Shown piece after piece: positions 4,996 through 47,600 of a DNA stretch of 47,813 nt. The translations under genes were made by a program, and so were the position numbers. The first letter of the stretch is position 1. Each line of letters opens with the position of its first letter. Origin of the DNA: Minisyncoccota bacterium (GTDB taxonomy: Bacteria > Patescibacteriota > JACMRA01); the NCBI GenBank assembly GCA_014376695.1, contig JACMRA010000016.1, forward strand, positions 1 through 47,813. Reading direction: 5' to 3'. Under the pieces are notes generated by a model. It saw only the letters and a list, made by a program, of their open reading frames with translations, was not told where the DNA came from and ran no database searches.

Positions 4996-5715
4996 ATGTC
5001 TCCGCTAAACAAATTGGAAAACAATCCAAAAAATACACCTACCCCTTCCGTTGAACGGATCAAAAAGCATAGTTATCGATTAGCCCTGTCCGCAGGTATT
5101 ATGGTAACATTAAACTCCTGTGCTTCTGTTGGCGGAAGTAGTGAAAGCGCAACCGCAACCGTCGCCGAGGAATTAGTTAACGCTATGATAACCCAGGAAA
5201 GCGGAGGGAATCAAAGTGCGGTAAGTCCAGATGGCGCTATAGGACTCGTCCAAATAATGGAGGGGACGGGTAAGCAATATTGCTCAGATCTAAAATGGCG
5301 AAAAGATCCTGCGGCTAATATAAAGTGTGGAGGTAGGATTGTAACGGCCTATGCTTCGCAATTAAAGATACCGCTTACGACGACTATAACTTACGAACAA
5401 TGTTTAACTCTTTTAAGAGCCTATAATAGCGGAGTGCAAAATGCTCATCGAACGGTTTATAACCTCGATGAATATGGTAATGCAACCATTTCTAATACTA
5501 AGCATGCTGAAATTGTATGTAAAGCTGTGAATCCAGCTGTAATTTCAAATAGCAAGGCAATTAATCCGGTTGTAGTACCTAAGGCTCCACTAGCAAAATC
5601 TCAGCAAAAGCAAACAATATACTCCCAACCTTCAGTTCAAACAGTTGGATTCCCAGAAAAGCAATGCAATCTGTATAAGGGGACTTGGGACGCAAAAGCA
5701 AAATTATGTAGATAA
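4996..5715 (+). CDS. Secreted lytic transglycosylase-like protein (SLT fold)
   Basis: Lytic transglycosylases cleave the glycan strands of peptidoglycan. The 239-residue product has a basic N-terminus, a hydrophobic stretch near residues 28-40 and LNSC, an imperfect lipobox, so it is probably exported and perhaps lipid-anchored. The catalytic core is seen as AMITQESGGNQSAVSPDGA followed by IGLVQIM: the Glu in QESGG is the expected catalytic acid and GLVQIM the SLT substrate-groove motif. A later LLRAYNSG matches the family's AYNxG motif. The tail has two cysteines framing GTWDA, a small motif often seen at the ends of secreted proteins. AAGGAAG lies just upstream of the ATG. It sits before a large secreted protein on the same strand, which fits cell-surface work. 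Confidence 0.8.
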   Translation: MSPLNKLENNPKNTPTPSVERIKKHSYRLALSAGIMVTLNSCASVGGSSESATATVAEELVNAMITQESGGNQSAVSPDGAIGLVQIMEGTGKQYCSDLKWRKDPAANIKCGGRIVTAYASQLKIPLTTTITYEQCLTLLRAYNSGVQNAHRTVYNLDEYGNATISNTKHAEIVCKAVNPAVISNSKAINPVVVPKAPLAKSQQKQTIYSQPSVQTVGFPEKQCNLYKGTWDAKAKLCR

Positions 5716-5761: not shown

Positions 5762-8700
5762 ATGTTAGAAAATACCAAAATCTTAAACGCTAATTTTACT
5801 TTATACCAATTATCCAAAACTTTTATTTTGCTTTTGATGCTTTTGACAACTCTTTTTGTTGTTGGGCTTGGAATTATCAATGCTCAGGCCGCTCAGTCCA
5901 ATAATTTGGAGACCAATATGACGTCCTACATCGGTTCAAGTGGGGACGATTTGGGGGAAGCGACCGCTATATCGCCTGATAATACGTATTGGTACGGCGG
6001 TTCAATTATTGATACCAGCGTTAATTACGGTCAAACTCCAATAAATATTCAAGGTGGCGGAGCTGGGATGCTATTGCATTTTGCGGCGGACGGCCAGACT
6101 CTACTCAAAGTGCTGCGTTATCCGTCCAGTGTCAAAGACATTTCAATTGACAAAATTACTAGTAAAGTTGCGGTTGTCGGAGCCTTCGGGATTTCTTATC
6201 TTAATCCGACTAATTATACTGAGGACTGGAGCCGTATTTTGCCAATTGATAGTGCGGCTATTGCCGAGAATTTTGTACGGGGGACGCACGTGGATATTGG
6301 ATCCAATGGCAATATTGGGACGCTTTATGGCAAACGGATAACTATTTGGGATAGTAGCGGGACTAACTTGACTGGAAGTGGCAACACCACCTTTGGGATT
6401 AATGCCAAGATTGTGGCTGATATTGCAATGGTTGGAGCGAACAATACGGTGGTTGTGATCGGCGAAACCCAAAAAGACGGCGGGCCATGTAGTCAGTGGC
6501 GAGGTGGCTGGATGAAAGCCTACGATTATACCGGCAATCTAGTCTGGAAGAACTACGACTGGACTCAATACGAAGTTTCTGGGACTGTGCCGGGCCTTGC
6601 AACTAATAACTGTGCCGACACTATACCGCAGCGAATTACCCTCGGGGCCGATAATAATCTTTATATGATTTCCAAATCGGCAGGTGGAAACAGTATGTAT
6701 CGCTACGACCCTAAGAATTTAAGTGTTGATTTATCCGCTAGTGGCAAATCTGCTGGGGGTGATAATTTTAATAATACTTCGAATATGAGTAGTCAAAATA
6801 TTACCTTTATGATGAAGTATGCACCGACCACGGGGGACATTATCAAGCAGCAAGTCTGGGTCTCGCGAACGGGAACCGGGGCGGCCAACTCACTTGTCGG
6901 GAGCGATATTGCGGTCGATAGTAGCGGGGTAATTGCTATGGTTGGGCAGACGGCGGCCTACTTTCCGGATAGGCTTAATCAAATTCAGGTGGTTAATGGG
7001 CTGACTTTGCCAGCTTACGGTAATGGTTATGAGGGCTTTTATCTGGAGTTGGCCCCCGATATGAGGACAAGGATTCGAGCTACCGCATTCAAAAAAACCC
7101 GAGAAACTCAAGTGGCCTCCGTTGCCATTCAAGGAAATAGGCGGGTTTTGGCTGGTAGCACCAATTATCCCGATGCCAGTATCCCGACCAAAAATTCAAT
7201 TCAACCAAATATTGGCGGCGGTAATAGCGATGGTTTTGTTAGTAGTTGGGGCTTTGAGACGGCAGCCCGTGACTACGCCATCAATGCAACCAAGATGCCG
7301 ACCGGTCAAACTGTCCCCTTGAATTCGAGCTTCGGTACGACTTTAAATTATAGTTACAGCGGAGTAGAATTACCCGTCAGCACCAATATTCAATTTACGG
7401 TGTCAGAGGGAATCGATTACACTAACGAATTATACGATGGATTTAGTTGCCTGATTATCACGGGCAACAAGAAGCAATGCACCAAGACTTTGACGGCTGG
7501 TCAGTGGCAAGCTGGCGGTTCAATAAGTCTTAATTATTCTGTAAGTCGAGTTTTGGCAGGTCAAAAGAACAAGGAAATTGTCTTTCAGGTTGTGCCGCTA
7601 AGTGCCGGTGGCCAAGCCGACCTTTACCCGGCTAATAACATTGCCACAATTCCAATTACTATCGATGATACCACGGGGCCATCAGCCGATTATTCATATT
7701 CTTTGACTCCGATTACATCAGGGGCAGTACCGCTCGGAGGGTATTTTGAAGTCAAAATTGACTATCTTTATACTGGTCCAGTCAATCTTGCGACCGACAA
7801 AAAACTAAAAATTATTGTACCATCCGGCTTAGAATATGATCCATTGAATCGCTCTGGTCTTACTTGTGCCATTGTTGCGGGCCTTGAAACTTGCACTACG
7901 ACACTTCTCAACCAAGATCTCAAACTTGGCAAAAGTCGACCTTTTTTGTTTCGGGTTAAAGCGCCTTATGTTGGGCCAATTAATCAATCAGTACTCTTCG
8001 GGATATATAATCAAGACGGGTCAGTTGTAGACACGATACCGGCCAATAATCAAGACCAGCCCCTAAATATTCTTATTAATCCAAATATGACGGCAACAAA
8101 CGATTATCAGATTAATTTAAGTTCAGCCATTACAAATGTGGCTCTTGGTCAGGCTACCTCCCCAAAAATCAATCTCAAATATACGGGGAATACTCCGCCA
8201 ATTAGCCAGCGGATCATTGTAACTATCCCAACTGGGTTTAGCTATAATTATTTGGTCAATGACGGTTTTGTGTGTATTGTGGCTAATGGTATTCAGACTT
8301 GTCAGCGAGAGGTGGCGGCAAGCGAGTGGCTGACTGCCTCAAGTGGCGCTGGTTTGGATATTAATCTCAATCTAATTGCCGATAGCATAATTAGCACGCC
8401 TACTACCAAAACTATAACTGCCAAACTAGGCATTATTGCCAAAAATGGCGAAGTCGATCAAACAACCCTTAACAATATCTCTAGTCTTGATTTGACTCTG
8501 AGTAGTACTGCAACTCCCAAACCAGCAACGCTTGCGATCAAGGTCAATCTGGCAAGTAGCTACGATATGGCTACTGGAGCGATGAAGACAAGTCTTCGAA
8601 CCAAGAATTTGATACCTTCTGCTCAACCGTATAATTCGAGTTTATTTGGTTATGCTGGCACGGAATCGGTTACTAATACTCAGGCTGATATTGTGGATTG

Positions 8701-9163
8701 GGTTTTGGTCGAGATACGCCAAGGCGCAACTACTGTGGCCAAAAAAGCCGGCCTGCTCAAGTCCAATGGCTTGATAATAGACCCTGTTAGTCAGGCTGAA
8801 ATAACATTTGACGGTCCGGATAGTCTTACTTATCAAGTAATTATCAGGCATCGAAACCATTTGGCAATCAGTACTAATTCTAACATCGCAATTACCGCAA
8901 ATCAAGCTACAAGCCTGGATCTAACTACCAATGATAATATCAAAGGAGCTAATCAAGTTATGCTCAAATCCGGGGTTTTTGGGCTTAAGCTTGGTAATCC
9001 CAGCGGTAATAATGTAATTAATTCTCAGGACAGAAGCCTAACTCGAACCGGAGGAGATGCCAATGGTGTCTACCGCCCCGAAGACCTGAATATGGATGGG
9101 ATTATAAGTTCCGCTGACCGAATACTTGGTCGCCTAACTATCGATGTAGCTGAGATTGTTTAA
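5762..9163 (+). CDS. Large secreted surface protein: propeller-like N-half, three Cys-paired beta domains, dockerin-like C-terminus
   Basis: The 1133-residue product begins with a signal peptide (hydrophobic residues about 18-40, likely cleaved after INAQA). Residues about 50-500 resemble SBBP-type beta-propeller repeats (SYIGSSGDDLGEATAI near the start). Three beta-sandwich modules of the DUF11/CARDB kind follow, each with a pair of cysteines 8-10 residues apart (near residues 561, 701 and 837, so a period of about 138). Residues about 930-1080 contain the segments GAMKTSL, SAQPYNS, VDWVLVEIR and VIIRHRNHLA, which closely match a C-terminal module common in secreted Bacteroidota proteins. 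The end has two dockerin-like calcium loops (NPSGNNVINSQD and DLNMDGIISSAD). There is no LPXTG motif. Its 3' end overlaps the convergent flippase gene by 26 bp. Its ligand is unknown. Confidence 0.75.
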   Translation: MLENTKILNANFTLYQLSKTFILLLMLLTTLFVVGLGIINAQAAQSNNLETNMTSYIGSSGDDLGEATAISPDNTYWYGGSIIDTSVNYGQTPINIQGGGAGMLLHFAADGQTLLKVLRYPSSVKDISIDKITSKVAVVGAFGISYLNPTNYTEDWSRILPIDSAAIAENFVRGTHVDIGSNGNIGTLYGKRITIWDSSGTNLTGSGNTTFGINAKIVADIAMVGANNTVVVIGETQKDGGPCSQWRGGWMKAYDYTGNLVWKNYDWTQYEVSGTVPGLATNNCADTIPQRITLGADNNLYMISKSAGGNSMYRYDPKNLSVDLSASGKSAGGDNFNNTSNMSSQNITFMMKYAPTTGDIIKQQVWVSRTGTGAANSLVGSDIAVDSSGVIAMVGQTAAYFPDRLNQIQVVNGLTLPAYGNGYEGFYLELAPDMRTRIRATAFKKTRETQVASVAIQGNRRVLAGSTNYPDASIPTKNSIQPNIGGGNSDGFVSSWGFETAARDYAINATKMPTGQTVPLNSSFGTTLNYSYSGVELPVSTNIQFTVSEGIDYTNELYDGFSCLIITGNKKQCTKTLTAGQWQAGGSISLNYSVSRVLAGQKNKEIVFQVVPLSAGGQADLYPANNIATIPITIDDTTGPSADYSYSLTPITSGAVPLGGYFEVKIDYLYTGPVNLATDKKLKIIVPSGLEYDPLNRSGLTCAIVAGLETCTTTLLNQDLKLGKSRPFLFRVKAPYVGPINQSVLFGIYNQDGSVVDTIPANNQDQPLNILINPNMTATNDYQINLSSAITNVALGQATSPKINLKYTGNTPPISQRIIVTIPTGFSYNYLVNDGFVCIVANGIQTCQREVAASEWLTASSGAGLDINLNLIADSIISTPTTKTITAKLGIIAKNGEVDQTTLNNISSLDLTLSSTATPKPATLAIKVNLASSYDMATGAMKTSLRTKNLIPSAQPYNSSLFGYAGTESVTNTQADIVDWVLVEIRQGATTVAKKAGLLKSNGLIIDPVSQAEITFDGPDSLTYQVIIRHRNHLAISTNSNIAITANQATSLDLTTNDNIKGANQVMLKSGVFGLKLGNPSGNNVINSQDRSLTRTGGDANGVYRPEDLNMDGIISSADRILGRLTIDVAEIV

Positions 9164-15756: not shown

Positions 15757-15800
15757 TTTGACAAAAATCCAAATTATTCTAACTATTAGATGGTATCTAA

Positions 15801-15891
15801 GGAGAGGTGGCCGAGTGGTCGAAGGCACTTCACTGCTAACGAAGCATACCCTAAACCGGTATCCAGGGTTCGAATCCCTGTCTCTCCTCCA
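15801..15891 (+). tRNA. tRNA-Ser, anticodon GCU
   Basis: A 91-nt class II tRNA. The acceptor strands GGAGAGG (15801-15807) and TCTCTCC (15881-15887) pair with one G-T at the base. The D-arm, a GCT anticodon in loop CTGCTAA, a long variable arm and the T-arm CAGGG-TTCGAAT-CCCTG follow. CCA is encoded at 15889-15891. The nucleotide before CCA is T, whereas bacterial tRNA-Ser normally has G there, and the last anticodon-stem pair is A-C. The long variable arm and GCT anticodon still make serine the secure call (codons AGC and AGU). Confidence 0.95.
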
Positions 15892-15942
15892 AAACATAAT
15901 CCAATACCAATAAATTATGGGAATCAAAATCAATTCTCATCT

Positions 15943-16743
15943 ATGTCCCAATACCCAATAGTAAAATTCAAACCAAAAATTCAGTTTAATTTGCTAAATG
16001 AATATTTGGACAAGAAAGCCGTAGGAAAATTTTTATTTGTAGGCACATTCTTTGCGTTATTATTTTGCTGTATTTATCTTCCTTTCAAGGGGATTCGATA
16101 TAATTCTAATACTAATTCACTTGATGGCCGAGGTGCCATATCCGTTCTGGAATCCAAAAAAGAGCCAATGGATGCAACCCCAAAAACAAAAGAAACGGCA
16201 ACAATAACCCCAAAAACAAAAGAGAGAAAACCCATAGATACCGGCCCGGTAGACGATGTCAAAGTCAACTCTTTTATACCAATTATCGCCATTAACCGAA
16301 GTTTCTGGCCAAAAATGCAACTCCCAGATCTTATCTCTCCAATTAGTAACTCGATTAATCAAATAATTCAAGGAATGTCCAAAGTCGAGACAAAACCCGT
16401 TAAAACCACCAAAATTCTTGATGTGGCCACTAGTAATAACACGGGACTTGGGCCAAGTAATTTGTCTATTGATCCATTCGCCACTAATTCAGCCAAAATT
16501 CAAGCCGTTTCGGGTCGAGTAATATGGCAAGACGGGGCTAATTACAGCGTAAAAAGCGACAAATTCTTGATACGCTCCAACCTAAGCATCCAAGTGGGGG
16601 ACAAAGTGGAGTCTTTGACTGTAGATAACAGCGGTCTCTTACCTGCTGATACATTGCTTTCGGTCAACAAGGATACCTTTATCAAATTAGGAGGCAACCC
16701 AAGCAACCAAAGTTATATTGATGCCGTTGTCAAAACCAGATAA
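15943..16743 (+). CDS. Membrane-anchored protein, possibly with a C-terminal double-psi beta-barrel-like domain
   Basis: The start at 15943 is the first ATG after the tRNA; longer frames would run through the tRNA. The 266-residue product has a basic cytoplasmic head, one membrane helix at about residues 27-45, a long linker rich in T, K and P (with TPKTKET and TPKTKER repeats), and a compact C-terminal domain of about 80 residues. The end, reading VTVDNSG-like LTVDNSGLLPADTLL and then FIKLGG, loosely resembles the DxG-LP-x(4)-L-x(7)-F-x-LGG pattern of RlpA/3D-type double-psi barrels. The usual acidic catalytic residues are not clear. It is 20 nt before the next gene and likely cotranscribed. 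Confidence 0.5.
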   Translation: MSQYPIVKFKPKIQFNLLNEYLDKKAVGKFLFVGTFFALLFCCIYLPFKGIRYNSNTNSLDGRGAISVLESKKEPMDATPKTKETATITPKTKERKPIDTGPVDDVKVNSFIPIIAINRSFWPKMQLPDLISPISNSINQIIQGMSKVETKPVKTTKILDVATSNNTGLGPSNLSIDPFATNSAKIQAVSGRVIWQDGANYSVKSDKFLIRSNLSIQVGDKVESLTVDNSGLLPADTLLSVNKDTFIKLGGNPSNQSYIDAVVKTR

Positions 16744-28680: not shown

Positions 28681-29409
28681 CTAATAAGCGTAAACCAAAA
28701 ACCGTTCTTTTTCGTTACCTAGGCTGTTAAATGGCCAGCAAGTCATTAGAACCAATTCTTCTTTGTCTCCCGCCTCACTCTTGACTACTCCGCCGTCATT
28801 CTCGTTGACAATTTTGGTACGGTCGACGTAATAGTCTTTTTGACCAAGGCTAGATTTGAAGCTGATTTTGTCGCCTTTTTTGATGTCTTTTAGGACTCTG
28901 AGTTCGCGGTTATTGTGACCTGCCAAAAATATTTGCTTCCCGGATCCAGGCCAGCCGCCTTGCGGGTAATGACCCAAACCATAGCGAAGGACTGACATAT
29001 CCATAGTTTCGTAGACAGCCACTTTTGTACCGAAGCGTTCGATTGTGATTAAGCCACGAAGAAGAGATTCGGCTGTTGGGAGTTTGGGGCCGTTGTTTGA
29101 CTCGGGCGTCGCGGCGATCGTGCCATCGGTTGTAACTATTGGTAGAGCTAAGTCAATTGGGACTAAATTGCCATCTTTTGGCGCATCTTTACTGACCGGT
29201 AATTTGGCGAGTTGCTGGTTAATTTGTTGCTCAGCGACATTGGCTTGGCGAAGGGTTTCTTGATTTTCGCTATATTCTGAGTAGAAATACCAGCCAATAA
29301 GTCCTAATCCACTCAAAAATGAAATAATCGACAATACTGCAAAAAACTTGGAAAGAACAAGGCGAAAATTTAATTTTGGTTTGAGGGTTAATTTTGGTGT
29401 TTCAGTCAT
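28681..29409 (-). CDS. Sortase (class D/E-like cysteine transpeptidase)
   Basis: Sortases cut a C-terminal sorting signal and attach the protein to peptidoglycan or to other proteins. The 242-residue product has a basic head, one membrane helix (residues about 22-48), a linker, and a catalytic domain with IFLAGHNN (His), LVLMTCWPF (Cys of the T-L/M-x-T-C motif) and ERFLVYA (Arg). These are the catalytic triad. The only obvious sorting-signal protein in the window is the one at 10704-11666. It is downstream of a DUF2834 membrane protein on the same strand (35 nt) and converges with the ABC genes. Confidence 0.9.
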   Translation of the reverse strand: MTETPKLTLKPKLNFRLVLSKFFAVLSIISFLSGLGLIGWYFYSEYSENQETLRQANVAEQQINQQLAKLPVSKDAPKDGNLVPIDLALPIVTTDGTIAATPESNNGPKLPTAESLLRGLITIERFGTKVAVYETMDMSVLRYGLGHYPQGGWPGSGKQIFLAGHNNRELRVLKDIKKGDKISFKSSLGQKDYYVDRTKIVNENDGGVVKSEAGDKEELVLMTCWPFNSLGNEKERFLVYAY

Positions 29410-41472: not shown

Positions 41473-42289
41473 TCAAACAAACACACAAAGGCCATTAATT
41501 AGCGTGATTATTCCGACAAAAAACGAAGAGAAAAATATTGGCCGATTAATTAATTCTATCCAAAAGGCTCGAGGATACAGCCAGGATAAAATTGAGATAA
41601 TCGTTGTTGATAATCCTGGGACAACAGACAAGACTCGCGAGATTGCTAATCAATTCGGTAATGTGGAGCTATTTATCCAAGGCCCTGAACGTTCAAGTCA
41701 GCGAAACCTGGGAGCCAGCAAAGCCAAGGGTCAATATCTATATTTTGTGGATGCGGATATGGAGTTTGGGCCAGATACATTGAATAAAATCGTAGCCAAA
41801 CTATCCCCAACAACCACCCTGATTGTCCCCGAGCAAATCCCTGGTAATTCAATTTACTGCCGGGCTATTAATGTCGAGAAGCAAATCTACAAATCCAATC
41901 CAAAAATCTCAGCCGCCCGAATAATGACCAAAGTCAAGTTCACGGAAGTCGGGGGATATGACACGGAAATGGTTAGTGGGGAAGATTGGGACTTGTACAA
42001 GCGGTTGCAGGATTCGGGGCTAAAAGTCGATTTCGTTGATTCCCATATTCTGCACAACGAACAAGATCTCACATTCTGGTCGAGTACCTCCAAAAAAATC
42101 TACTACGCCAAAAAACTCAAAAATTACAAAGTAGGTATCCAGACCGAGGTCAATCCAATCTACAGGATAGCAATTTTATTTGGGAAGCCTCAGGTAATTT
42201 TTGGTGATTTTGTGGCTTGGGTATATCTAGTACTACTCAAAATGACTCAATTTGGCGTTGGGTTCGTTATTTATAAAATGCCAAATTAA
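41465..42289 (+). CDS. Family 2 glycosyltransferase
   Basis: A soluble-looking GT2 of 274 residues: ISVIIPTKNEEKNIGRLI, IIVVDNPGTTDKTREI, GASKAKGQYLYFVDADME with an intact DAD, and GGYDTEMVSGEDWDLYKRL, the acceptor-side ED motif. It is related to the preceding gene by layout, and the C-terminus is hydrophobic. Its start overlaps the previous stop by 8 nt. The sugar and acceptor cannot be deduced. Confidence 0.85.
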   Translation: MSNQTNTQRPLISVIIPTKNEEKNIGRLINSIQKARGYSQDKIEIIVVDNPGTTDKTREIANQFGNVELFIQGPERSSQRNLGASKAKGQYLYFVDADMEFGPDTLNKIVAKLSPTTTLIVPEQIPGNSIYCRAINVEKQIYKSNPKISAARIMTKVKFTEVGGYDTEMVSGEDWDLYKRLQDSGLKVDFVDSHILHNEQDLTFWSSTSKKIYYAKKLKNYKVGIQTEVNPIYRIAILFGKPQVIFGDFVAWVYLVLLKMTQFGVGFVIYKMPN

Positions 42290-42311
42290 CAAAAAAAATA
42301 AAAAAATAAAA

Positions 42312-43607
42312 ATGTCTACAAAACAAATTAAAGATCGGTCGATCTCTCCAAAAATTTTAATCACTAATCATTTCGTAAATGCTCAAAACTTGGGCGATTT
42401 AGCTCTGGTTGAGGCTATAATTTCTCAAATGAGAGAAATATTTGATAATCCAGAAATAATTTTAGAATCAGATAATCCAGAACTCTCAAAGCAATATTTT
42501 AAAAGTATACCGATAGTTGAGAGACTATTTGCGATACGAAATATTAAACTGTCAAAAAATATTTATTCTTTTGATTTTGTCTTAAAAAACTTACCCCAAA
42601 TGTTTAGATTGTTTTTTATTATAATAAATTACTATTTATTCAAATTTTTGGGCTTAAACTTACTTAATCAACAGGTTTTAAAAGAATATCAATCAGCTGA
42701 TTTAATTTTGATGATTGGCGGGGATTATCTAAGTAAATACTACGCCTATAAATTAAGGTTTATGGAAATTGAATTAGCCAAAACCCTCAAAAAGCCGATA
42801 ATTCTTTACGCTCATTCGGTGGGGCCTTTCAAAAATTATGATATAGCCTACAGCAAAAAAGTTTTATCAATGACTGATGGCGTCTTTGCCAGAGATGAAA
42901 AATCTGAAAAACTACTAATTGAATACGGCGTCGACAAAAAAAAGATCTTTAGAACTGCAGATTCTGTTTTACTTATGAAAACTTCAAGCTCTAATTCTGC
43001 CCAAAATCTTGTCACCAAGCTCAATATAGACAAGAACACAATAGGACTTGTAATTCGTGATAATGGATTTTCTCAAATGGAAGATACTGGATATCAAAAA
43101 TATTTAGCTGGTATGAAACTTTACGTTGACTTTATTTTGGAAAATGGATTCAAATTAGTTTTTATAGCTCCTAATAATTCAGATATTTTGGCCACTCACA
43201 AATTCGTTAAAGAATATAATTATAATTTGCCAATATTTTATACTAGGGATTTGCAACCCGAAGAGGCCAAATACGTCCTGTCTAAATTCAAAATAGTCAT
43301 TAGCTCGCGAATGCATCCGCTAATAATTACCTCAAGTACTGGCGTGCCGGTTATTGGTATCGGATTAGAGTTCAAAACTCTAAATTACTTAACCTTGGTA
43401 GGATTAGAAAAATATTGTCAAAAAATGGATGATTTCGATATTGATAATGCAAAACAGGCGTTCAACGAGCTAAACGCCAACTACGAAACAATTTGCAAGA
43501 ACTTACAAGTTAAGATTGGATTGGTACAAGAAAAAAGTAAACTTAACATGAGTCTAACTAAAGAAATTTATTCAAAATATGCGAACAGTCAAACCCTTCA
43601 TCTCTAA
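42312..43607 (+). CDS. Polysaccharide pyruvyl transferase family protein
   Basis: These enzymes add a ketal-linked pyruvate to a sugar residue, giving the polymer a negative charge. The 431-residue product has LITNHFVNAQNLGDLALVEA, ILMIGGDYLSKYY, PIILYAHSVGPF, GVFARDEKSEKLL, and SSRMHPLIITSSTGVPVIGI with the HP and the metal-binding pattern usual in the PF04230 family. The start at 42312 is preferred over an earlier in-frame start at 42252 inside the previous gene. It is more AT-rich than its neighbours, which may mean separate origin. It overlaps the next start by 29 nt. Confidence 0.85.
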   Translation: MSTKQIKDRSISPKILITNHFVNAQNLGDLALVEAIISQMREIFDNPEIILESDNPELSKQYFKSIPIVERLFAIRNIKLSKNIYSFDFVLKNLPQMFRLFFIIINYYLFKFLGLNLLNQQVLKEYQSADLILMIGGDYLSKYYAYKLRFMEIELAKTLKKPIILYAHSVGPFKNYDIAYSKKVLSMTDGVFARDEKSEKLLIEYGVDKKKIFRTADSVLLMKTSSSNSAQNLVTKLNIDKNTIGLVIRDNGFSQMEDTGYQKYLAGMKLYVDFILENGFKLVFIAPNNSDILATHKFVKEYNYNLPIFYTRDLQPEEAKYVLSKFKIVISSRMHPLIITSSTGVPVIGIGLEFKTLNYLTLVGLEKYCQKMDDFDIDNAKQAFNELNANYETICKNLQVKIGLVQEKSKLNMSLTKEIYSKYANSQTLHL

Positions 43608-44583
43608 CCAAGAATTAAAACCGCTAATCTCGATTATCATTGTCAATTACAACGGCAAAAAATGGCTTGATAAATGTATTAATTCGCTCGAACAACAAAC
43701 CTATACTCATCTGGAAATAATAATCGTGGATAACGGCTCAACCGACGACAGTGTTTTGTATATCAAAAAAAACTTCCCTAGCGTAAACCTGGTTCAGTCT
43801 CGCCAGAATTTGGGTTTTGCAGGAGGGAATAATCTAGGGATCGCCAAAGCCCAGGGGGAATTAATAATGCTGATCAATAATGATACTTGGATTGAGAACG
43901 AAATGATTCAAAGACTATACGAAGAAAAAATCCAAAAAAAATTAGATGTTATAGGTCCCAACGAGCTACTCTATGACAAAAGCTTGAGACCCCTAAACTT
44001 AAGTATGACAAGCCTTGACTCATTTGGTCATTACATACATACGGATCAAATAAGCAAGTTTTTTTACTTGTCTGGAGTCTGCCTTTTGTTTTCTAAGCAA
44101 TTATATTCAGATACTGGAGGGCTTGATAATAGCTTTTTTATGTATTCAGAAGAAATTGACTGGTTCTGGCGACTGCATTTGTACAAGAAAAAAATTGGAA
44201 TTTCCCAGGATCAAAAAATATATCATGCCGGGGCTGGTAGCACTGGAGCTGGAATTAAATACTTAACATTTCTCTGGCGTAACCAAAACACTCTGCAAAT
44301 GCTACTAAAAAATTACGAGTGGCATAACCTGGCATGGGTGCTGCCAATATATTTGATCATTAATACTGCCGAGATGACCCTCTTTTTATTAATTGGCAAG
44401 CCAAAAATTAGCCTTAGTTACATTCAAGGTATCTGGTTTAATATAAGATATTTTGACAGAACTATGCACTCAAGAAAGATAATCCAATCGGCCAGACTAA
44501 TACCAGATACCAAAATTTTTGAACTAATGTATTTTGGATTTGCTAAATTTAACCACTTAATACATTTTTTTAAATTTAGTTAG
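43579..44583 (+). CDS. Family 2 glycosyltransferase, rhamnosyltransferase-like
   Basis: The 334-residue product has SIIIVNYNGKKWLDKCI, VDNGSTDDS, RQNLGFAGGNNLGI and MLINNDTWIEN, where the DxD appears as NND, all usual in WbbL/RfbF-like GT2 enzymes. The acceptor-side segment YSEEIDWFWRL carries the ED-like motif. One or two hydrophobic helices lie near the C-terminus. Its start lies 29 nt inside the pyruvyl transferase gene. Rhamnose as the sugar is a family guess. Confidence 0.85.
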   Translation: MRTVKPFISNQELKPLISIIIVNYNGKKWLDKCINSLEQQTYTHLEIIIVDNGSTDDSVLYIKKNFPSVNLVQSRQNLGFAGGNNLGIAKAQGELIMLINNDTWIENEMIQRLYEEKIQKKLDVIGPNELLYDKSLRPLNLSMTSLDSFGHYIHTDQISKFFYLSGVCLLFSKQLYSDTGGLDNSFFMYSEEIDWFWRLHLYKKKIGISQDQKIYHAGAGSTGAGIKYLTFLWRNQNTLQMLLKNYEWHNLAWVLPIYLIINTAEMTLFLLIGKPKISLSYIQGIWFNIRYFDRTMHSRKIIQSARLIPDTKIFELMYFGFAKFNHLIHFFKFS

Positions 44584-44626
44584 CTCAGAGCCTTCTATCA
44601 ATATATTTAACTCCTACTGATTCATT

Positions 44627-47600
44627 ATGATACTTCCAACCATACAAAAAATAATTCACAAATTAAACACCTTTTGGTTCTATTTCGCGGCATTAACAAT
44701 AATTACACTACTGCTTCACAAGCCCTGGTTTGACCCCAGTAGCGTCCTATCTTTTGGCGATTGGTATCCTTGGTCAGGATTTTCGATTAATAGGATACAT
44801 GCTATTTTTCGTATGTGGGTCAACTTTAGTGACTTTGGCGAGTCGAATATCCAACCTAATTTTGTAATATTCAAGTATGTTTGGGGTTGGTTGTATAATT
44901 TGGGTTTGAGCAATCAAAATGCCATTAAACTCAATATATTTGTACCGCTGGCTCTCTTGGTTGTTTGGTGCCCTTATCTATATTTTGGCTACAAAACAAA
45001 ATCAAATTTTATCGGATTTATAGTGGCGATATTTTATTCGTCGACTACCTATATACTCCTGCGGTCGCAAGGCGGGCATACATTAATTGCCATTTCGTAC
45101 GCTATAGCGCCACTCCTTTTTTATTTATTTGAAATTATCCGGATTAAACCCACTTGGAAAAACTATGGCTTGTTAACCTTATTGCTTTTTGTAATGATTG
45201 GATATGAGCTGCGAATTAGTTTGATAACTTTTTGCCTTTTGATTCTGCATATGCCTTTTAACAAGGGCTGGTCCAAAACTGTTTTTAACAAAAAATTTGG
45301 GCTTTCAATTCTTTTAATTTTTTTGACTAACTTATATTGGTTCTTGCCAATCGCATTATCCAAAAGCTCTGATAGCATTGCCAAAGTAGCCAATCGCGGA
45401 CTTTTTGGGAATCATTTATTTGACCTGAATAAGGCCGCAACCCTTTCTGAATCAGCATGGACAGCTGGCTTTCCTAATAACTTTTTTGTAAGTCAACCGG
45501 TGCAGGCCTATTTGTGGATAACACCTATACTATGTATCTTTTTTGCTGGAGTAGCCATAATCACTAAAAAATTCAATTATATATGGTGCTATTTTACTTT
45601 GATAAGTCTAATTGGGATACTTTTAACGAAGCAATCCGCAGAACCCTTTCCTTTGCTGTACAGATTTTTATACGAGAAAGTGCCAGGATTTAACTTATTC
45701 CGAGAGGCTTCAAAATTTTATTTAATAACTGCTTTTGGATATACTGGATTATTAGCCCTCGGTCTAAAACTAATGTCTGATATCAAGTGGAAGTATTTAT
45801 CCATAAATTTTGACAGCTTTGCCAAAGCAGCGGCTGTTATTGCTATTCTATCAATATCTTTTATGAACCAACTTCCAATAATTACAGGTGAAATTGGAGG
45901 TATGTACAAGAGTCGACTCCCAAACCCTGATAACGCAATTGTCAATCAATTCATTAATGACCAACCCGATTTTAGTAGATTTTTATGGTTACCGAGCAGA
46001 AGCTCTTACGCTGACTTTAGCGATATACATCCTTACGTAACGATGCCAACTCTTAATACTATATTTGAGACCAATAAAAGCGACTTTTGGACTAATACTC
46101 AAGAATTATTTAACAAAAAAGACCTGCCCAAATTCCTCACCAAAAACAATATCAAATATATTGGTGTCCCAACTGGTGAGATGGATCGAGATGGTGCTCC
46201 GCTCGTGTATTATGGCGAAGACAAAGACCCTGATATCCGCTCGAAATTCATCAAGCTTCTTGACCGACAGCCCTATTTGAGCGATATAAGCGCCGAACTT
46301 GGATTAAGCCAGCTCAAAGTCTACAAACTAAAAGATGCTAGCATCACCTCTCGATACCAATCACTAAGCAACCTCTATCAAATCAACAAAAAAGAATTTA
46401 ATGCTGATAACCTAGATCAAATCAAAACTTATCTCAACTCAAACACTGAGCTAACTTACAACGATAGCCCTAATAGTCAAGAAATTAATAGCATTCAAAA
46501 AGCTTTTGAAGTTAAGGATATCCTTGGCACTCCTACGACCAAAACAATTAGCAAGGATTTGACTGCTTTGCCCAGTGCTCGAGAGCAAGATATACTAGAA
46601 ATTGTCTATCCTAAGCTCTTTTATAGTTTTGTAGAAAATAAACTGGAAATATATTCCAAGTACTCTAGCGACTTGCAAGTAGACGGCCAAAAAACCCAAG
46701 ATACCAAAAAAGAGACTCTGTTCAGTCAAGTACTTGTCGACAATGATAATTTGGAGATTAAGCTTGGTTCCCAGTACCGAAGTCTAACTCAAGGTAGTCA
46801 AGATAAATTCTTAGCCAGAACAGATCAAATAAAAGGTTTTGAGATATATCGAAGCAATAATTCGGCGCTAAATGAAGGCTTCGATGACGGTTTCTGGCAA
46901 GATAAAGTAGGGGATTGTAACAATGCGGACGACTCACCCAAGCTCCAACTCCAAAATATCACAGCCCCAGAGAACAACTACGTCAACCTCCAAGCTGAGC
47001 GCCACATTGCCTGTATCAAAAAAGCCTTAGCCATAATCCAAAGTGGTCAATACAAAGTAAGTCTTAGAGCCAGGAGCAATACAGAAGGCAAAGCGACCGA
47101 TGAAATTGGTTATTACCTAGGACTGAACAAATCGCCCGATGATCCAGTTATCTTCAAAAAAAAGCAGCAAGTTGGCAAAGATTGGACGCAAATAGAAGAT
47201 TATATTGATATACCAATGGTTGGATTATATGATATGTTTTTGTATGCCTATGGTAATGGTAGTGATAACGCCAGTATCGATTATGATAATATCAGCATAA
47301 TTAAAATTGACAAAATCTACGAAAAACAAGGGCTTAATGCAACCCCAGAATATCGCCTGCAAGATCTCAAAGACAAAAAAAACCTCACAATTGAACAGGA
47401 TAATCTTATCAATCAAAAGTTAAATGAAAAATTTGATAATGGGTTCTGGAGCAAGCAATTAGGTGATTGCCTCAACTACGACAAAGACCCAAAAATTGGA
47501 CAAGAGATAAAGGCCCAGGATAACCAGAACTACCTCAGTTTGTTTGCCCGCCGGCACTTTGCTTGTACTAACAAGATAGTAAGCGGGTTAGAACTTAATC

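Follow-up and report, generated by a model that had tools for sequence, protein, structure and literature searches.

The secreted surface protein encoded at positions 5762..9163 (+) of the stretch of DNA analysed here ends in a segment that predicted structure identifies, with good support, as an X-dockerin (XDoc) docking module, the plug half of a docking pair. The stretch, called the window below, comprises 47,813 nucleotides of contig JACMRA010000016.1 from a Minisyncoccota bacterium of the candidate phyla radiation (CPR). The module occurs nine times in this genome, which also encodes a candidate socket, moderately supported as a cohesin-like domain. We think it probable that the two belong to a plug-and-socket surface in which anchored cohesin-like sockets hold XDoc-tagged secreted proteins, and the cell surface may thus be assembled in the manner of cellulosomes.

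The open reading frame (ORF) encodes 1133 amino acids (aa), with an export segment, a body and the C-terminal module; the hydrophobic segment at the N-terminus has no counterpart at the C-terminus, and scans of the full protein against Pfam and NCBIfam gave no family at E ≤ 1. The module (215 aa, residues ~919–1133; 8516..9160, +) begins slightly upstream of the interval picked out by a sequence-only reading of this DNA (about 8516 rather than 8520). That reading had singled out three segments and two calcium loops, and all of them are located in this ORF. SAQPYNS (8618–8638, +), VDWVLVEIR (8693–8719, +) and VIIRHRNHLA (8837–8866, +) lie within a part that resembles X modules, an immunoglobulin-like (Ig-like) beta-sandwich (8516..8995, +). 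The two calcium-type loops, both 12-mers, lie in the halves of a dockerin: NPSGNNVINSQD (8996..9031, +) is degenerate, with N for D at position 1, and DLNMDGIISSAD (9083..9118, +) is canonical, as is the second loop in all eight CPR copies examined (D1, N3, D/N5, G6, D12). Each is followed by a helix with the pattern DR...R. The module thus shows the dockerin hallmark of a duplicated F-hand calcium loop with D/N ligands and a helix after each copy.

An AlphaFold2 (AF2) model built on 69 aligned copies, eight of them CPR and the others from the Fibrobacterota–Chlorobiota–Bacteroidota (FCB) side (61 copies), has a pLDDT of 96.8 and a pTM of 0.92, and places one helix after each loop (model residues 170–178 and 199–206). 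In Foldseek, ranks 1–7 are all XDoc entries, led by 4wi0_B; in VIA-align, eight XDoc entries lead with Z 9.7–10.8, the next match having Z 5.9. The XDoc matches span model residues 3–215 (rmsd 3.5–4.0, 145–151 aligned residues, 19–23% identity), and the Ig-like X part stands directly N-terminal to the dockerin, packed with it as one unit. Rank 11 in VIA-align is taken by carboxypeptidase D domain II (1qmu). PMC5141474 likens the X module to this domain and suggests that X stabilizes the dockerin for cell-surface cohesin attachment. A module profile compared with PDB sequences finds dockerins (best E 3e-5; 2b59_B at 9e-4) over columns ~147–219; a viral fold library gave no match at E ≤ 0.001. 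The Pfam dockerin model PF00404 (Dockerin_1) gives no family match on the window module. Four of the seven complete copies in this genome match it at E ≤ 0.1, two full-length proteins of the genome that have a row fall under the cut-off, and at E ≤ 1e-3 it reaches only five of 69 module members, which accounts for the module's lack of a name. The structure search that the sequence-only reading had proposed gave the module an identity which that reading had not seen.

The genome (956 kb in 16 contigs, 78% complete, 0.27% estimated contamination) contains one bacterial 16S rRNA gene; genomes of the phylum are mostly 0.5–1.5 Mb, and these traits suggest a CPR bacterium. A Saccharibacteria 16S probe gave no match. 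The nine module copies (E 8e-150 to 3e-13 in a search of this genome) are spread over seven of the 16 contigs, two of them sharing one 196-kb contig. Seven are complete and have 38 invariant columns in common, and in six of these the module ends the protein with at most one residue left, the seventh having a longer tail. The bodies of the tagged proteins differ: above the family cut-offs we found GH26 (38 bits), CBM9 (113 bits), SdrD_B (231 bits) and FG-GAP (57 bits), and under the cut-off a beta-helix/GH141_M-like part in two proteins. The two remaining copies, on contigs C1 and C16, are cut by contig ends, and the first 141 bases of these contigs (L014:1-141, L015:1-141), inside the module, are identical. 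This is as expected for an assembler halting in a near-identical repeat, and probably recent near-identical module ends, arising by gene conversion or duplication, broke the assembly there. The XDoc gene on contig C13 (L010:4237-7409, -) seems split into ORFs of 486 and 526 aa with similar repeats at the break, which could be a frameshift, an assembly error or a genuine break.

PF00963, the Pfam cohesin model, failed as a direct means of finding the partner, both in this genome and in G003, a genome of the same family that also carries the module; the partner was reached through gene adjacency in G003. There, the XDoc gene is followed 39 bp downstream, on the same strand, by a gene for a 512-aa secreted protein that ends in PRTGG, a hydrophobic stretch and KKK, and the N-terminal ~160 residues of this protein form the candidate socket domain. 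The genome studied here has two homologues of this domain (E 3e-14 and 2e-12), one in a 548-aa protein (contig C12) whose C-terminus has SRTG, then a hydrophobic segment and finally a basic tail, the other in a protein cut by the end of contig C11. C-terminal hydrophobicity is 2.81 and 2.72 in the two complete socket proteins, compared with 0.86 or less in the XDoc proteins. Homologues were not found in four module-free genomes of the family or in two FCB genomes. Over 379 genomes the socket profile is clear only in the present genome and G003, the same two as the module, with a 38-column match in G352 (E 0.008). A Pfam scan of the domain gave no match, and against the ORFs of the FCB loci the profile found nothing better than E 0.4.

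The AF2 model of the socket, made from three sequences, shows a cohesin jelly roll, to be taken with caution at this depth and a pLDDT of 69.8 (pTM 0.69). Its Foldseek ranks 1–26 are all cohesins, as are VIA ranks 1–43 (Z 9.5–7.8). The first Foldseek match, 4wi0_A, and the top match of the plug, 4wi0_B, are partner chains of one crystal. The fold moderately supports a cohesin-like nature for the socket, and gene adjacency and co-occurrence suggest that it may bind XDoc.

A search of 84,980 species genomes, from the results of which near relatives of the present genome may be omitted, gave at least 559 stretches encoding a relative of the module, and the best 80 were kept; together with the copies in this genome, these far exceed what chance would give. 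Among these, the 78 that bear a name at phylum level or lower all belong to Bacteroidota, Ignavibacteriota, Chlorobiota, Calditrichota or KSB1; the remaining two are labelled 'bacterium isolate RS_7_18'. The match ends 32 residues or fewer from the frame end in 76 of the 80 (L078 and L079 of these being truncated), which bears out the tie, proposed from sequence, to the C-termini of secreted Bacteroidota-type proteins. QP[YF] occurs in 69 of these 80 best matches, DW in 80, an HxxH-type motif in 73 and RHRNHL in 30. Three FCB proteins (L088, L094 and L097) have 230–338 residues after the module, which in L088 and L097 resemble, by eye, the tails of the type IX secretion system (T9SS). Within the phylum of the present genome, a CPR profile is clear in two of 379 genomes, this one and G003 (1.5e-53); the module was not found in the four other genomes of the family (68–85% complete). 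A broader profile at E ≤ 1e-3 matches 54 of the 379, nearly all on the dockerin part alone (columns ~160–220). Among 198 genomes from the Bacteroidota side (the search centre included), 27 have a match with E ≤ 1e-5, some on the C-terminal part only and many with full modules. A search of plasmids gave no match. The CPR profile also matches, at 7.5e-6, a distant short protein in G160, a 100% complete genome of the phylum. This is a short secreted Ig and dockerin protein, and G160 has two weak PF00963 cohesin matches as well (loci L107:1471-2127, -, and L138, G160:C1:413057-413386); annotation may thus understate how common cohesin/dockerin pairs are in CPR.

In FCB genomes too, cohesins accompany the module. 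Of nine module-carrying FCB genomes, six have a PF00963 match at E ≤ 0.01 (G379, G381, G382, G383, G384 and G541, the match in G379 being only under the family cut-off); none was found at this threshold in G380, G471 and G573. In G382 and G383 a cohesin match and the module share one open frame, and L026, L039 and L053, read by eye, have a cohesin-like part together with the module, an adaptor arrangement. The CPR plugs carry a signature of their own: dockerin positions 12, 13 and 17 are D, R/K and R/K in both halves of all eight CPR copies, compared with one of 61 FCB copies. Positions 13 and 17 are separated by a single turn of the helix, and these dockerin helices bind cohesins in the known complexes treated in PMC5141474. 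That each half repeats the signature fits a pair of equivalent binding faces, and we infer a single specificity, common to all CPR plugs and changed from that of FCB.

How such a surface might work can be outlined as follows. At least nine secreted proteins with differing bodies would be exported by signal peptides, seen here as hydrophobic segments only. Their C-terminal XDoc would plug, presumably in a calcium-dependent manner, into the cohesin-like domains of surface proteins and so keep them on the outer face of the cell, the socket proteins themselves being anchored through their C-termini (RTG motif, transmembrane segment and basic tail) by sortase, the membrane or both. The tagged proteins could then attack, or stick to, glycan-coated cells or matter; the one GH26 client and the one CBM9 client, together with a transglycosylase gene adjoining the XDoc gene of the window, point to glycans or walls of partner cells as targets. 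More tentatively, and with somewhat less than an even chance of being right, we propose that the surface is self-made: one dockerin specificity (D-R...R in both helices) would serve at least nine secreted adhesins and hydrolases and be recognized by a cohesin family missing from Pfam, so that an ultrasmall cell could exchange its tools on a few anchors. The plug being of FCB type, tagged proteins of FCB neighbours might also be captured, or docking of the CPR proteins on FCB cohesins might serve host attachment.

Several observations weigh against this scheme. The first loop of the plug is degenerate, with N at position 1 in seven of the eight CPR copies, though D stands at position 12 in all eight. 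The socket model is weak, four other socket models reaching a pLDDT of only 44–63, and CBM2 and CBM3 jelly rolls follow the cohesins at Z 7.7–7.3. PF00963 has no match in the present genome (E ≤ 1) or in G003 (E ≤ 0.01), and an hhalign comparison of the socket against nine stretches of cohesin, one from CPR and eight from FCB, gave 0.2% probability, so that cohesin homology rests on fold. There are two sockets for nine plugs. As the two genomes belong to one family, shared descent may account for the co-occurrence, and the kinship comparison that bears on this had too few usable genes (2, 2, 7, 0 and 3 in family genomes G001–G005). An alternative is a real XDoc plug whose partner lies elsewhere, on another surface protein, an S-layer component or the cohesins of FCB neighbours, the socket being a carbohydrate-binding jelly roll: the plug fold is strong and the socket model is not, the CBM2 and CBM3 folds score close behind the cohesins, and a sequence-level tie of the socket to cohesins was not found with PF00963 or by profile comparison. 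Because all of the top 26 Foldseek and top 43 VIA matches are cohesins, and because socket and plug genes adjoin in G003 and co-occur, we consider this unlikely. A C-terminal sorting or secretion signal like that of T9SS, rather than a docking plug, would account for the extreme C-terminal place of the module, seen in 76 of the best 80 FCB matches and in all but one of the seven complete copies here. It is an improbable reading, since the structural matches are XDoc dyads and not a T9SS tail, and since the module in L088, L094 and L097 is followed by further residues; where these look like T9SS tails, the module can stand inside a sorted protein. The window protein also has no match to a T9SS model in Pfam or NCBIfam (E ≤ 1), the T9SS machinery of the genome not having been searched for.

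For the history of the module, the FCB matches were thinned from 80 to 61 by removing four truncated or odd rows (L078, L079, L083, L088) and 15 with more than 50% identity to a kept row. In the resulting unrooted tree (69 rows by 225 columns, with a bootstrap that had yet to settle), the eight CPR rows form one clade (100/100) on a long stem, apart from all 61 FCB rows, and a quick tree restricted to the X part recovers the clade (SH-aLRT 99). Binning of Bacteroidota contigs with a CPR genome, which could be entertained because clear copies of the module occur in just two of the phylum's genomes, hardly merits consideration given this separate clade, the copy that a second genome of the family has inside it, the spread of copies over seven contigs, including the 196-kb one, and the low estimated contamination. 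The G003 copy is nested within the paralogues of the present genome (91/82), so the module seems to have multiplied before the two genera separated; the identity of the G003 copy, 44%, is about that of ordinary genes (27–54% in seven compared). Midpoint rooting sets the CPR clade among the FCB rows with weak support (54/59), and the G160 protein is too distant for use as a root. With two of 379 genomes on one side and 27 of 198 on the other, transfer from an FCB-type lineage into an ancestor within the CPR family, followed by multiplication, is the simplest history and the likely one. Vertical descent from a deep common ancestor, with repeated loss, is rather unlikely, as is a transfer in the opposite direction, from CPR to FCB. 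An unrooted tree with an intact CPR clade would allow either, as would the dockerin-like matches in 54 genomes of the phylum, yet these are nearly all to the dockerin part, while full modules are present in many of the matching Bacteroidota-side genomes and the FCB side is spread across several phyla. Because there is one CPR clade on a long stem, and the G003 copy diverges like ordinary genes, any transfer would be old and single, its donor and direction not being fixed by the tree. The sequence-only reading had suggested transfer from, or interaction with, Bacteroidota hosts or neighbours. The FCB-type link and the distribution favour the transfer, but not in a recent or donor-specific form, and nothing in our analysis shows contact with Bacteroidota hosts. 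A deep CPR clade with no tie to Bacteroidota, the outcome named in advance as counting against transfer, was seen in part only: the clade is exclusively CPR, yet its nearest known relatives are FCB.

Elsewhere in the window, a lytic transglycosylase (SLT) gene (4996..5715, +; PF01464, E 7e-14), with a lipobox-like LNSC read by eye, ends 46 bp upstream of the XDoc gene on the same strand. It is a possible operon partner. A sortase gene (28681..29409, -; PF04203, 78 bits against a cut-off of 26.6) encodes a candidate anchoring enzyme for the RTG-type socket proteins; the closest NCBIfam models, of class D, score under their own cut-offs. The genome has four sortase matches, and sortases are present in all six family genomes searched. 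For this reason, and because identity is 22% over only 139 residues, a specific pairing of the window sortase with the best G003 sortase was dropped. A tRNA-Ser(gct) called by ARAGORN at 15801–15891 lies inside a 317-aa ORF (15790–16743, +), so that one of the two calls, the tRNA or the start of the ORF, must be wrong. At ~42000–46000 GC content is 33–38%, compared with 40% in the surroundings; a 1062-aa ORF in this part leaves the window and has no Pfam match at E ≤ 0.001.

These results bear on the question of how a CPR cell equips its minimal envelope and keeps hold of its partners. With both halves in one genome, a testable answer is available, which names at least nine client proteins and can be pursued with purified proteins and no cultured host. 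They also indicate that C-terminal XDoc modules occur widely among secreted FCB proteins and that PF00404 detects very few of them. The cellulases of Melioribacter roseus, for example, are described as lacking dockerins in a passage of PMC3534657; arguing from the performance of PF00404 on other genomes, we believe that such statements may need a second look.

Among known systems, the closest in structure are the type II X-dockerin dyads of CipA/ScaA and CipB (PDB 2b59, 4wi0, 4u3s, 5k39, 5g5d, 5m0y), which have the same C-terminal arrangement of an Ig-like X on a two-loop dockerin. The module differs from these cellulosomal dyads, to which it has 19–23% identity, in its larger X part (about 160 residues versus 98), in escaping the Pfam dockerin model and in occurring on many different proteins rather than on one scaffoldin. 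Similarly, the candidate socket has the same predicted jelly roll as cohesins (PF00963; Coh3ScaB of 4wi0, CaCohA2 of 6kgc), but no PF00963 match, a model of low confidence and a single such domain on an RTG/transmembrane-anchored protein. A cellulosome proper has a multi-cohesin scaffoldin and many dockerin-borne glycoside hydrolases. Here we found one cohesin-like place in each of two proteins and one GH26 among nine tagged proteins, although more sockets or hydrolases could be hidden, the genome being 78% complete and one socket gene cut. Non-cellulosomal cohesin and dockerin proteins were reportedly described by Peer et al. in 2009.

As regards other lineages, a cellulosome-like system has been proposed for Ca. 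Stygibacter (Cloacimonadota) in sections of PMC8542988. Both it and the non-cellulosomal systems resemble the present one, as far as these accounts go, in having dockerin-tagged secreted proteins and cohesin proteins outside Clostridia. The present case differs from them in that the cell is a CPR bacterium, the dockerin is of X-dockerin type, the partner is not in Pfam and a multi-cohesin scaffold was not found. Within Patescibacteria, PMC10633639 lists a dockerin-domain protein of the epibiont Southlakia epibionticum, SEML1_0315, as essential and envelope-associated; the word cohesin is absent from the main text of that paper. The likeness to our XDoc proteins is one of description alone, and an essential dockerin protein in an epibiont makes a similar role here plausible. 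Among open-licence articles on dockerins or cohesins in CPR, Patescibacteria, Saccharibacteria or Parcubacteria, passages of PMC10633639, PMC8542988, PMC9177762 and PMC10066038 contain no account of such a system. Taken together, the comparison suggests that the system is a non-cellulosomal cohesin/dockerin display, of a kind already known, and that its CPR form is new.

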